Assembly: GCF_000012505.1 (NCBI RefSeq)
Contig: NC_007513.1
Span: 1,612,001-1,676,000 of the forward strand
Direction of reading: 5' to 3'
DNA: 64,000 bases
DNA from: Synechococcus sp. CC9902
Lineage (GTDB): Bacteria > Cyanobacteriota > Cyanobacteriia > PCC-6307 > Cyanobiaceae
Position numbers and translations under genes: made by a program. The notes below the pieces were generated by a model, which worked only from the letters and a program-made list of their open reading frames with translations, made no database searches and had not been told where the DNA came from. This document shows positions 14,745-19,191 of this stretch, piece after piece (the stretch's first letter is position 1; the number at the start of each line of letters is the position of its first letter).

Positions 14745-15698
14745 ATGGCCCTCACCGAACTGCGCATCGCTTCACGACGCAGCCAGCTGGCCATGGTGCA
14801 AACCAACTGGGTCAAAGCGGAACTGGAAAAGGCTCACCCAGGCCTGACGATCACGGTGGAAGCGATGGCCACCCAGGGCGACAAGATTCTCGACGTTGCC
14901 CTGGCCAAAATTGGCGACAAAGGGCTGTTCACGAAGGAACTCGAGGCCCAAATGCTTGTTGGGCGTGCGGATATCGCTGTTCATTCCTTAAAAGACCTAC
15001 CGACCAATCTCCCTGAGGGGCTAATGCTCGGTTGCATCACCGAACGGGAAGATCCCGCCGATGCCCTGGTGCTGCACGCCAAAAACAAACATCTCAATCT
15101 TGCGACACTCCCCGAAGGAGCTGTGGTGGGCACCAGCTCACTCCGGCGCCTTGCCCAGTTGAGGCATCACTATCCCCACCTGGAGTTCAAGGACGTCCGC
15201 GGCAACGTGATTACCCGTCTGGAGAAACTCGACAGCGGTGCGTATGACTGCCTAATCCTTGCCGCGGCTGGCCTGGGTCGACTCGGCTTTGCAGATCGCA
15301 TCGACCAATCCATTCCTGGGGATATTTCTCTCCATGCCGTGGGACAAGGCGCCCTGGGGATCGAATGCGTTGAAAACCAGCCAGACGTGATGGAGATCAT
15401 CAAAGTGCTCGAGCATGGGCCCACGTCCCAGCGCTGCCTCGCCGAACGCGCCTTCCTCCGTGAACTGGAAGGAGGCTGTCAGGTGCCCATTGGTGTGAAC
15501 ACACGCTTCGAGGGCGACCAATTAATCCTCACAGGCATGGTGGCCAGCCTCGACGGGAAGCGCTTGATCCGAGAGCAGGCATCAGGCCCCTCCACCGACC
15601 CCGAATCGATTGGTCTTGAGCTGGCGGCAACGCTAAAGGGGCTTGGAGCTGGCGAGATTCTCAAGGAGATCTTCGACGCCGTCCGCCCCGAGGCCTAA
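14745..15698 (+). CDS. hemC: Porphobilinogen deaminase (hydroxymethylbilane synthase)
   Basis: Polymerises four porphobilinogen units into hydroxymethylbilane, upstream of chlorophyll, haem and bilins. The 317-residue enzyme starts with [15 protein letters not shown], has KDLPT (83-87), the arginine-rich [12 protein letters not shown] (129-140), and the cofactor-attachment loop [10 protein letters not shown]. Cys 245 is the dipyrromethane anchor. The ATG at 14745 is well placed. A second tetrapyrrole gene, hemL, lies at 32.9 kb. No co-directional neighbour follows within 200 bp. Confidence 0.96.
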
Positions 15699-15917
15699 GC
15701 CAACCACAGCCCAACAATGGGCCCAACATTGCCAATAAGTCTGGCGAGTGATGCCCGTTGCGAGCAGGGCAGGCCTGCAATCGTGATGCAATATTGAGAT
15801 TATTTGGATCTAAAAATGGTCAGAAATAGGATTCAATAGACTCAATAAATTGCAACCAGAGCAAACTTTTCAGAAAGCCAATCAATAGAACGACGATTGA
15901 AAAATTGAAAGCCAATT

Positions 15918-16874
15918 ATGTTTCTTTCCCACACCACACCCGACCAAGCCCTCCAGGTGGCGGCATCTGTCGCTGGAGCATGTCGACTAAATGGACGCTG
16001 GTGCTCAGAATTTCAACCGTATTTTTTAAATCTGATCTTCCGAGAACTTCTCGATATCAACATTGATTTCCACAAGATCAATGCCATTGATGTCGACCAA
16101 GCCCAGGCTATTTTCCAAGGAAACATTCAACGTCGTGAACTGATTGAGCTCCTAGTGCTCACGGAAATGATGCTGAGTCCCATCCCGGAGGAGCTCGAAC
16201 GCTCCCTGGAGCATTGGGCGCAGCAGCTCAACGTTCATGATCGAGCGCTAACTCTGGCGAGGGATGTTGCCGGACAAGCTCGGGCTCAGGCCCAAAGCGA
16301 CTTTTATCGACTGTTTTGGATGGGAGAAGAAGACCGTGAGCAACAAGGATTCGAAGAACTGCTCAAGCAACACGGACCCCAGGCATGGACATTCACGGTG
16401 GAAGAAAATCCCGACTTAGCAACACAGTGGCGATCACTCGCCCAACTGCCAGAGGGCACGCTCGGTGCAGCAGTTTGGGCCCACTATCAAAACCATGGCT
16501 TCCAGACCCCTGGAGAATTGGGAGGAGCGAATGCTGCACTGGCCCATCACGATTGGCTGCATGTGCTGGGGAACTACGACGTCACGGTGATTGGAGAAGT
16601 GGAGAACGCCGCCTTCGGCGCCGCAAGCAGCAACAAACCTGGTGCCACCCTTTGGTTCCTTGGCGTGATGGCGATGTACGAAGGTGGGCTGTTCGACAGT
16701 GTTGTGGCGGGTAGCCATCCACATCAAATCTCCGCACCCGGTATGGCCGAACGGGTCGCCCATGCCTTACGCCGCGGCCGCCAATGCCAGCAAGACCTCC
16801 TTGCCATCGATTACTTCACCGTGGCGGATCAACCTCTCATCAAGCTTCAACAAAACTGGGGTATCAAAGACTGA
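15918..16874 (+). CDS. TerB-like / Coq4-like two-part protein
   Basis: A 318-residue protein. Residues about 8-125 are all-helical and resemble a TerB-type domain (VAASVAGACRLNGRW, RRELIELLVLTEMMLSPIPEEL). Residues about 180-310 resemble Coq4: H211-D212-x2-H215 is followed by exactly eleven residues and E227, the spacing I recall for the Coq4 metal site. The sequence after it (VENAAFGAASS) also fits. Coq4 acts in quinone synthesis; cyanobacteria make plastoquinone, so the substrate here is unknown. Preceded by a 219-bp AT-rich gap and convergent with the transpeptidase gene, 11 bp apart. Confidence 0.7.
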   Translation: MFLSHTTPDQALQVAASVAGACRLNGRWCSEFQPYFLNLIFRELLDINIDFHKINAIDVDQAQAIFQGNIQRRELIELLVLTEMMLSPIPEELERSLEHWAQQLNVHDRALTLARDVAGQARAQAQSDFYRLFWMGEEDREQQGFEELLKQHGPQAWTFTVEENPDLATQWRSLAQLPEGTLGAAVWAHYQNHGFQTPGELGGANAALAHHDWLHVLGNYDVTVIGEVENAAFGAASSNKPGATLWFLGVMAMYEGGLFDSVVAGSHPHQISAPGMAERVAHALRRGRQCQQDLLAIDYFTVADQPLIKLQQNWGIKD

Positions 16875-16885
16875 AGAAACCGATC

Positions 16886-17386
16886 TCAGCCTCGGATTTC
16901 CAAGGTTGTCCCCACGTCAACGAGGTCAAACAATTGGCGAACGTGAACATTCAGCATGCGAACGCAACCCAAACTGACGGCAGCACGGGTCTTCACCCAA
17001 TGGGGCCAGGGAGTTCCATGGATTCCGAATTCACCGCGACCGTTGCGATGGAAGGCCAAATAACGATCACCGATCGGACTTGTTGGACCGCTCAGTTCCT
17101 TGCGCTGTCCAGACTTTTTTGAAACGTAAATGGGGTCAATTTTTTTCGTGAGAATCGAGAACTCCCCCTGAGGCGTTGGGGTCTTGGGGTCACCAATCGC
17201 CACCGGCCAGGAGCCACGCATCCGACCATCCAGCACCACGCTGATTTCACGGCGCTGCAGATCCAAAAGAATGCGCGATGGCAACGAGGTATTCAAGGCC
17301 AGTTCCTCCGCCCTGACCGGGACTGCCATCGCAAGTGCAGCAGCCATGACGGGAAACACACACGACGCAAGCCGCATAAGACGCAT
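16886..17386 (-). CDS. L,D-transpeptidase (YkuD-family) precursor
   Basis: Secreted peptidoglycan cross-linking enzyme of about 166 residues. A signal peptide covers residues 1-26 from ATG 17386 (hydrophobic VFPVMAAALAMAVPVRA). The YkuD domain begins at ILLDLQRREISVVLDG and includes TPTPQGEFSI and FGIHGTPWPH. The catalytic stretch is SLGCVRM, where the usual SHGC histidine is Leu, a variant seen in some members; the nucleophile Cys is kept. Upstream TTG 17404 is a weaker start. Confidence 0.9.
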   Translation of the reverse strand: MRLMRLASCVFPVMAAALAMAVPVRAEELALNTSLPSRILLDLQRREISVVLDGRMRGSWPVAIGDPKTPTPQGEFSILTKKIDPIYVSKKSGQRKELSGPTSPIGDRYLAFHRNGRGEFGIHGTPWPHWVKTRAAVSLGCVRMLNVHVRQLFDLVDVGTTLEIRG

Positions 17387-17549
17387 AAGTCCTGCTGGTC
17401 TCAAATGTATTCACGGCGCATCAAAGAAGCCTCAAAATGAGGTCTGGCAAACAAACTCTTCAGAATCTCTTTGTCTCGCAGATGAGACACAAGAGCCGGG
17501 TTTCAACGCTGTTTGAGCTGGCGGTACCCTGCCCACACGCTGTAGAGCC

Positions 17550-18428
17550 GTGTTGTCCAGTACGACGATCGCCACGAAAAAGCCATCCTTGCTATGCGGT
17601 GAAGCCTTAGCCCAAGCCGTTGCCAGCATCAGCTTTCCGTTTTCTGAGGTTGTACGCAGCCGGCGCAGCTTTATCGCCGCAGCCTGGGCCCTGCGTCGCC
17701 ACGGGATCATCTGCCTGCGCGGTGCCGCTTCAAATCAAGACTTGACGTCGATCCGAGATGAGATTGACAACTTATTAGGGAACATTGAAGCAAACGACCT
17801 ATCCAACCTCCAGGACATTGCATACCTCAATCTTCCTAACAATCGCGTTTTAAAGGGATACAACAACTTCCGAGATGCGGACCGTCCTGTCATTAATTAC
17901 CGTGTGAAACGACCGGACGGACGGACGGGAAGTGATGCAGGAATGATCGACATATTTCACCCTGAACGACTTTCAATTAACTTAGAAAAGAAGATCCAAA
18001 ATTGCTTGCACGAAAGATTAATTCAGAGACTATTACTAGTTAGTAGTCTAAACCAAATGAGGGTAAAGTGCCGTAATTTATACTTAAATCAAGGGGTCCA
18101 AGACACACGGAGCTATCACTGCGATGGCCGCTCCTTGAAATTCAAATCATTCGTTTACATCAGCGATGTCAATGAACTTGATGATGGTCCCTATTGCTAT
18201 GTGAAAGGGTCCCATCGCCGACGACGCATGTGGTGGCGCAGTGCAACCTTTAACAAAAAAAATAAACTCGGTCCCTTTGAATTCAGCCAACTTGAAGGTG
18301 CCGAAGCGATCTCTCTTTTCGCGAAAGCTGGCGACATGGTTCTCTCCTCTCAAAAAGGAGCCCATTGCGGCCATCCCCAGCATCCGGAAGCAAAACGCAC
18401 AGTTTTGGTGAATATGTATCAGCGTTAA
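17550..18428 (+). CDS. Phytanoyl-CoA dioxygenase (PhyH)-family protein
   Basis: Likely Fe(II)/2-oxoglutarate-dependent oxygenase, 292 residues from GTG 17550 (start uncertain; an internal start is possible). The metal triad is visible as H190-C-D192 (SYHCDGRSLKF) with a distal His at 272 or 275 (KGAHCGHPQHP), and the oxoglutarate-binding Arg is R283 (AKRTVLVNMYQR). The jelly-roll strand DDGPYCYVKGSHRRR fits. The substrate is unknown. The middle of the gene (about 17.8-18.1 kb) is visibly richer in A/T than its neighbours, which could point to acquisition. Convergent with ppa. Confidence 0.8.
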   Translation: MLSSTTIATKKPSLLCGEALAQAVASISFPFSEVVRSRRSFIAAAWALRRHGIICLRGAASNQDLTSIRDEIDNLLGNIEANDLSNLQDIAYLNLPNNRVLKGYNNFRDADRPVINYRVKRPDGRTGSDAGMIDIFHPERLSINLEKKIQNCLHERLIQRLLLVSSLNQMRVKCRNLYLNQGVQDTRSYHCDGRSLKFKSFVYISDVNELDDGPYCYVKGSHRRRRMWWRSATFNKKNKLGPFEFSQLEGAEAISLFAKAGDMVLSSQKGAHCGHPQHPEAKRTVLVNMYQR

Positions 18429-18437
18429 ACAATAAAA

Positions 18438-18463
18438 AAAGGCGAGGTAACCCTCGCCTTTGA
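18438..18463 (-). terminator. Terminator between PhyH gene and ppa
   Basis: A 10-bp perfect stem, AAAGGCGAGG (18438-18447) with CCTCGCCTTT (18452-18461), and a TAAC loop. Read on the minus strand it is followed by seven T, so it ends ppa strongly; it may also serve the convergent PhyH gene. Confidence 0.85.
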
Positions 18464-18481
18464 ATGAATAGCCTGAAAACG

Positions 18482-19069
18482 TTAGTCGACGAGCTTGGGG
18501 TCGATTTCAGCCATATAACGAGCCTCACAACTCTTGATAATTTCCACGGCCTTTTCAGTACCAAAGAAACCATTCACAGTGCAAGTACCAGGCTTTTTGA
18601 GATCCTTGTAGTGCTCCCAGTAATAGGTGGTTTCTTTTTTCCAATGAGCGCCTAGATCTTCAAAGCTCTTGATGTGATCCATACGCTTGTCATCCGCCAA
18701 AACAGCGATCACCTTGTCGTCAACCTCACCACCATCGTCGAACGTCATCACACCAATGATGCGAGCCTCCACGATTGATCCTGGGACGAGCGGCTCAGTC
18801 ACATTGACAATCTCGATGTCAAGGGGATCACCATCTTCATCCCATGTACGGGGGATGCATCCGTAGGCAAACGGGTACGAGAGGGAGGAATAGCCGACAC
18901 GATCTAGCTTGAGGTGGCCAGTTTCAGTGATCAGCTCGTACTTATTAATCGTGTTGGAGTTCAGCTCCACGATCGTGTTGAGGCGAAGCTCGGCTTCATC
19001 AGCGAATGCGGGCAGCACATGCAACAGATTGGGCATGCTGCGGCTCGGAGCCTGGTCGAGGTTGGCCAT
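18482..19069 (-). CDS. ppa: Inorganic pyrophosphatase
   Basis: Hydrolyses pyrophosphate and so drives biosynthetic reactions. Family I soluble enzyme of 195 residues from ATG 19069; a TTG nine bases upstream is less likely. Active-site signature DEDGDPLDIEIV (near 80-91) carries three metal-binding Asp; KYEL, LSYPFAYGCIPRT and DDKVIAV also match. The C-terminal part (HIKSFEDLGAHWKKETTYYWEHYKDL) is typical. A strong terminator follows. Confidence 0.96.
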   Translation of the reverse strand: MANLDQAPSRSMPNLLHVLPAFADEAELRLNTIVELNSNTINKYELITETGHLKLDRVGYSSLSYPFAYGCIPRTWDEDGDPLDIEIVNVTEPLVPGSIVEARIIGVMTFDDGGEVDDKVIAVLADDKRMDHIKSFEDLGAHWKKETTYYWEHYKDLKKPGTCTVNGFFGTEKAVEIIKSCEARYMAEIDPKLVD

Positions 19070-19191
19070 GCAAGGCAAAGAACAGCGCCCGGGATCCTAC
19101 GGGGCAACATCGAATCATCCCAAATTTCCAGCAAAATAAACGATTAAGTGCTGATATTTTCACGATATTGACACAGACTTGCCCTCAGCAA

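Follow-up and report, generated by a model that had tools for sequence, protein, structure and literature searches.

A cyanobacterial protein joining a TerB-fold half to a Coq4-like half with a conserved metal-site motif in Synechococcus sp. CC9902

The locus and its coding evidence

The window, a stretch of 64,000 nucleotides from the genome of Synechococcus sp. CC9902, carries a gene whose product is made up of a TerB-fold N-terminal half and a Coq4-like C-terminal half (Table 1). The host genome is a single contig of 2,234,828 bases and is 99.97% complete. The gene starts with an ATG, which just three codons separate from the in-frame stop upstream. Comparison with a 93%-identical copy in another genome (G278) gave a dN of 0.036, a dS of 0.398 and a ratio of 0.089, with dN higher in the N-terminal half (0.056) than in the C-terminal half (0.023). 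Judged by these substitution rates, the gene is under purifying selection. A scan for promoters and terminators returned zero sites of either kind, and NCBIfam held no match for the protein. Zero families among the PADLOC defence models matched it at E values up to 1, and a role in anti-phage defence was rejected.

Table 1. Features of the fusion gene and its surroundings (positions in the window)
Feature	Position	Strand	Evidence or remark
Apparent remnant, 5' end of PhyH-like gene (intact in G278)	15717..15754	+	Shuffle-tested alignment
TerB-Coq4 fusion protein ORF	15918..16874	+	318 aa, stop included in coordinates; dN/dS 0.089 vs G278
TerB-fold N-terminal half, residues 1-125	15918..16292	+	hhalign 97.8%; isolated model matches 2ou3
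Arg131, between the two halves	16308..16310	+	45/45 relatives
Coq4-like C-terminal half, residues 161-318	16398..16871	+	Pfam Coq4 below cut-off; hhalign 99.0%; 6e12 Z 11.2
Metal-site motif H211-D212-x-x-H215-x11-E227	16548..16598	+	Kept in 45/45 relatives
Neighbouring PhyH-family dioxygenase gene (context only)	17550..18428	+	PF05721 24.9 bits, cut-off 22; synteny

Relatives, invariant residues and trees

A family search covered 61 genomes, seven of which gave a match. The resulting alignment (A1) holds 12 proteins from six genomes, the window's included, the broken match of the seventh (L007) having been excluded. These proteins align end to end, and their invariant residues include H211, D212, H215, E227, Y220 and G183. 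At E values up to 1 Pfam recognized Coq4 in 12/12 of them and TerB in 4/12 (best TerB 0.0026), while among three further relatives scanned L101 had no Pfam match at that threshold. The loci that we examined contained 54 ORFs of the family; removal of three duplicates and six fragments or single-domain Coq4 hits left 45 relatives, among which L071 and L073 are cut at contig ends.

The preliminary description had taken H211, D212, H215 and E227 to be the signature of Coq4. Both the residues and their spacing are right: the numbering was verified, eleven residues separate H215 from E227, and the HDxxHx11E motif is kept, together with Arg131, in 45 of 45 relatives (Gly183 in 44). Within the window the pattern is unique (six frames, open segments of at least 60 aa), and it was present in 26 of 20,000 shuffles of the fusion protein.

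When the 45 fused proteins were placed in a tree together with 17 proteins of the ordinary Coq4 kind, a single branch (100/100) set them apart as a separate clade, and the addition of seven short proteins of the Nostocaceae type gave three groups. A single fusion followed by expansion would be the simplest reading of these trees, which are unrooted, do not include Alr8543 and drew from the program a warning of long branches.

The Coq4-like half

The Pfam Coq4 model (PF05019) matches residues 210–317 with an E value of 2.3e-4 and 21.0 bits, and does not reach its cut-off of 22.9 bits. Profile comparison by hhalign of the C-terminal half with the 17 ordinary Coq4 proteins gave a probability of 99.0%. 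The likeness to Coq4 proposed from the motif is thus borne out by profile search, although under the cut-off.

A whole-chain AlphaFold model built with 12 sequences (pLDDT 88.5, pTM 0.88) is almost entirely helical. In Foldseek its hits below 0.001 consisted of three Coq4 chains only, 6e12 among them (6.2e-5), and VIA-align ranked 6e12 first (Z 11.2, rmsd 5.3, 167 residues aligned), followed by 3msq (10.7), 2ou3 (9.6) and the next structure at 5.7. Since helical bundles may reach such Z values by chance, equal weight was given to the hhalign comparisons of the two halves. A search of the PDB with the A1 profile returned Alr8543 (6e12) at 7e-10, 3msq at 6e-7 and the TerB structure 2ou3 at 0.11. 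The structural match to 6e12 starts near residue 101 of the fusion protein. Structure prediction had been proposed as a check on the earlier reading, and it yields a Coq4-like fold and no different one.

Alr8543 of Nostoc sp. PCC 7120 (PDB 6e12) and Npun02000094 (3msq), both of PF05019, share the fold of the C-terminal half and the HDxxH-x11-E motif; unlike the fusion protein they are without a TerB half. Animal and yeast COQ4, whose four metal residues and spacing are identical to those of the fusion protein, likewise have no TerB half, and differ further in that they serve ubiquinone synthesis.

The TerB-fold half

That the N-terminal half looks TerB-like had also been suggested beforehand. 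Against two cyanobacterial TerB proteins (L058, which matches PF05099 at 1.7e-9, and L062) it reached an hhalign probability of 97.8%. A model of residues 1–131 in isolation (pLDDT 84.3) was ranked TerB-first by VIA-align, with 2ou3 of Nostoc punctiforme at Z 10.9 (rmsd 4.3, 129 residues aligned), 2h5n at 8.5 and the next structure at 4.6. Foldseek did not give this ranking: the isolated half had no hit below 0.001, and the match of the whole chain to 2ou3 was weak (E 3.6, probability 0.57). On the hhalign and VIA-align results the TerB-like assignment holds. Pfam TerB (PF05099) had no match in the window protein at E values up to 10; a whole-genome TerB search returned a different protein and not the window's. 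The claim that TerB is foreign to ordinary Coq4 held, as the N-terminal half compared with the 17 ordinary Coq4 proteins scored just 0.2%.

An acidic Asp-Gly motif is typical of TerB and is seen in L058 and L062. In the window protein, unlike TerB/COG3793, it is replaced by Leu86-Ser87; of the 45 relatives, 8 retain it. The protein L058 carries a Mo-nitro_C domain besides its TerB region.

With respect to TerB, then, the window protein has the fold and the profile similarity but neither a Pfam match nor the Asp-Gly motif, and with respect to Coq4 it has the motif and the fold but falls below the Pfam cut-off and groups apart in the tree. Since it passes neither Pfam cut-off we file it outside both families, in a clade of fused proteins that is related to both but belongs to neither.

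No published description of a TerB-Coq4 fusion was found in titles, abstract openings and some passages, a body of literature that leaves out most subscription journals and all preprints. Both domains are known; their union in one family, and the spread of that family, are undescribed as far as this search reaches.

Distribution

The survey took in 386 cyanobacterial genomes with a completeness of 90% or more. Matches covering both halves occur in 20, of which 18 belong to the family of the window's organism and the others are G120 and G291. Any match to the A1 profile was found in 140 of the 386, many through one half only; matches to the N-terminal half alone, of the size of L058 and L062, are frequent among them. 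Several genomes carry at least two or three copies of the fusion family, numbers which are lower bounds, at most five candidates having been scored per genome. In the window's own genus 7 of 20 genomes gave a match, some of them divergent, as did 5 of the 10 near-complete ones.

When one genome per species was scanned by pattern (84,980 species), the close subfamily turned up at 11 loci, nine of which are in records of Synechococcus, Cyanobium or another cyanobacterium and two on contigs labelled Methylocystaceae. The latter (L066 and L071) are 6 kb long with a GC content of 41%, which is low for Methylocystaceae, and their other genes look proteobacterial; cross-phylum transfer and mis-binning are both possible. 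An L,D-transpeptidase-like gene lies near the fusion gene in the two contigs (Pfam was run on L066). Spread by plasmid, phage or virus was considered and rejected, tblastn having given no match in plasmids or phages and a pattern-led scan of viral contigs none either.

Genomic setting

Nineteen loci of the genus were compared between hemC and the L,D-transpeptidase gene. The two lie 7–137 bases apart in 16 of 16 other loci in which the distance is measurable (in G278 and L132 it is not); in the window they lie 1,194 bases apart, and the fusion gene occupies the gap. In G278 hemC is followed by an intact PhyH-like gene, with the fusion gene next. Upstream of the window's copy we found what is apparently the remnant of this PhyH-like gene, corresponding to about its first dozen codons (alignment score 160; the highest among 100 shuffled spacers was 129). 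PhyH was accordingly rejected as an obligatory partner, being intact beside the fusion gene in G278 but decayed in the window. The window has a separate PhyH gene after its L,D-transpeptidase gene, and so do 12 of the 17 other loci of the genus in which the fusion gene is missing from this place.

The hemC/L,D-transpeptidase/pyrophosphatase region (14745–19078 in the window) hosts two TerB-Coq4 subfamilies in different genomes. In L080, L094 and L100 the other subfamily is represented by copies lying one gene further along, and L086 and L111 hold broken ones. The fusion gene comes and goes at this region.

No fixed operon around the fusion gene was seen in the loci examined. Nor was there a recurring partner: no Pfam family matched more than two of the 110 neighbouring ORFs scanned (of 168 listed), these being simple longest-ORF calls that may miss genes in GC-rich genomes. 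In L067 (12624–13394) and L093 (5531–6250) a gene for a TerC membrane protein stands at three genes' distance from the fusion gene; these two loci have neighbour genes in common and are therefore not independent cases. The host genome has one TerC match, far from the fusion gene. A peroxiredoxin gene adjoins the copy in L069. Arrays of leader peptide genes, which we take to be Nif11-type and prochlorosin-like, are found no more than a few kilobases away from the fusion gene in L089 and L093.

Possible function

Most probably the protein is accessory and serves a small client other than plastoquinone, either as a metal-dependent enzyme or by binding lipid, and its TerB half would be a docking module. 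The explanation we favour, while rating it at somewhat less than an even chance, is an accessory protein of TerB fold and Coq4-like half whose metal site would carry out a COQ4-like decarboxylation outside core plastoquinone synthesis. By analogy with Alr8543 and COQ4, the residues H211, D212, H215 and E227 would coordinate a divalent metal (Zn or Mg) next to a hydrophobic pocket. The site might then act on a small lipid-like or phenolic carboxylate, for which decarboxylation of the COQ4 kind would be the simplest reaction. Docking of the enzyme to a membrane or protein partner would fall to the TerB domain, a TerC-type membrane protein being one candidate. Since the Asp-Gly of TerB is lost in the window protein, docking seems likelier than ion sensing.

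The four metal residues correspond to H142, D143, H146 and E158 of COQ4. Passages of one paper describe Zn-dependent C1 decarboxylation without hydroxylation by a reconstructed animal COQ4, and no product from its double mutants H142A-H146A and D143A-E158A (PMC7615680). For human cells, passages of a review cite one study in which COQ4 carries out a single oxidative decarboxylation at C1 (PMC11495197). Alr8543 is described in part of another report as having two Mg ions at the HDxxH-x11-E motif and oleic acid bound (PMC9774615), and a TerB-TerC complex is mentioned in a passage of PMC11003894. Against the accessory decarboxylase it may be said that COQ4 chemistry is reported for animal COQ4, and that bacterial Coq4-like proteins could be non-catalytic. 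The lack of a recurring operon partner, the Coq4 score under the cut-off, the missing Pfam TerB match and the blank Pfam result of L101 weigh on the same side, and docking on TerC is suggested by analogy, its gene lying at a distance in the host genome.

A bolder form of the proposal is a new family of TerB-docked metal-dependent decarboxylases, derived from one fusion and expanded in the Synechococcus/Cyanobium group, which would make or modify a prenylated-phenol or quinone-like lipid in organisms that have no ubiquinone; as a whole we consider this unlikely. To our knowledge cyanobacteria lack ubiquinone, so that the clade keeps four catalytic-type residues in organisms without it, and the Coq4 metal site is here separated from ubiquinone. 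Were the protein active, it would show Coq4 chemistry outside coenzyme Q and offer a fresh model of a human disease enzyme that is itself poorly understood.

The non-catalytic alternative, which we hold to be rather unlikely, is a lipid-binding or scaffold protein that carries or presents an isoprenoid or fatty acid and whose metal site serves to stabilise its fold. The oleic acid in Alr8543 would fit such a role (passages of PMC9774615), as would the earlier view of COQ4 as a scaffold (passages of PMC9774615 and PMC8969065) and the several paralogs per genome in varied surroundings. However, all four metal residues are invariant across a deep clade (45/45), and animal COQ4 is reported, in the passages of PMC7615680 mentioned above, to be catalytic in vitro.

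Another candidate role is that of a tailoring enzyme of specialised metabolism encoded in genomic islands, for example in prochlorosin or polyketide clusters. Synechococcus MITS9509 is described as having a Coq4 gene within a prochlorosin/polyketide cluster (PMC10783134), and in a plant a COQ4-like gene shows co-expression with the shikonin genes (PMC8969065), two cases which place Coq4 relatives near specialised metabolism. The leader genes of L089 and L093 point the same way. But precursor clusters were present in 2 of the 51 loci examined, a few of which duplicate one another, and the window's copy is flanked by housekeeping genes, which makes this role quite improbable.

We are equally doubtful of participation in a Ter-type response to membrane or oxidative stress, in which the Coq4 domain would be a lipid or metal sensor. 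The TerB fold of the N-terminal half, the TerC genes of L067 and L093 and the peroxiredoxin gene of L069 would agree with it; on the other side stand the replacement of Asp-Gly described above, the non-independence of L067 and L093, and the lack of a ter operon in the loci examined.

Plastoquinone had been offered in the preliminary description as a possible client. The protein would then be the C1 decarboxylase of the plastoquinone pathway, or its helper, acting on solanesyl-hydroxybenzoate. In the synthesis of coenzyme Q, COQ4 works at the corresponding C1 step, and a cyanobacterial 4-hydroxybenzoate solanesyltransferase serves plastoquinone synthesis (passages of PMC5159609). A core gene would be present in every maker, yet both halves were matched in 20/386 genomes, PF05019 was matched in 55 of 244 cyanobacterial genomes (by a search which misses the window protein), and within the genus 7/20 genomes had a match (5/10 near-complete); neither the fusion nor PF05019 was found in the ten listed small genomes of the same family (g17 and g39). 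Given the patchy occurrence of the gene, its absence from complete cyanobacterial genomes and the UbiD gene of the host, a core role in plastoquinone synthesis is very unlikely; to judge by its distribution, the fusion gene is apparently not needed for it. Coq4 as a stand-in for UbiD was rejected as well, at least five UbiD-less genomes (G017, G111, G116, G168 and G177) not being among those listed with Coq4. One of these, G017 (1.7 Mb, 100% complete), has neither a UbiD nor a Coq4-family match, which leaves no evident enzyme for its plastoquinone decarboxylation step.

Short Coq4-like proteins

The short Coq4-like proteins of Nostocaceae type (about 173 aa; L054–L061 without L058) resemble the fusion protein in having HDxxHx11E in 7/7, and differ from it in having no TerB half and in forming their own clade (91/94). 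In six of the seven loci (L054, L055, L056, L057, L059 and L060) the gene is flanked by an LTXXQ/Spy-like gene on one side and an AhpC/TSA peroxiredoxin-like gene on the other, as assigned by Pfam for the neighbours in L054 and by likeness for the others. This conserved setting suggests a link of the short form to oxidative stress.
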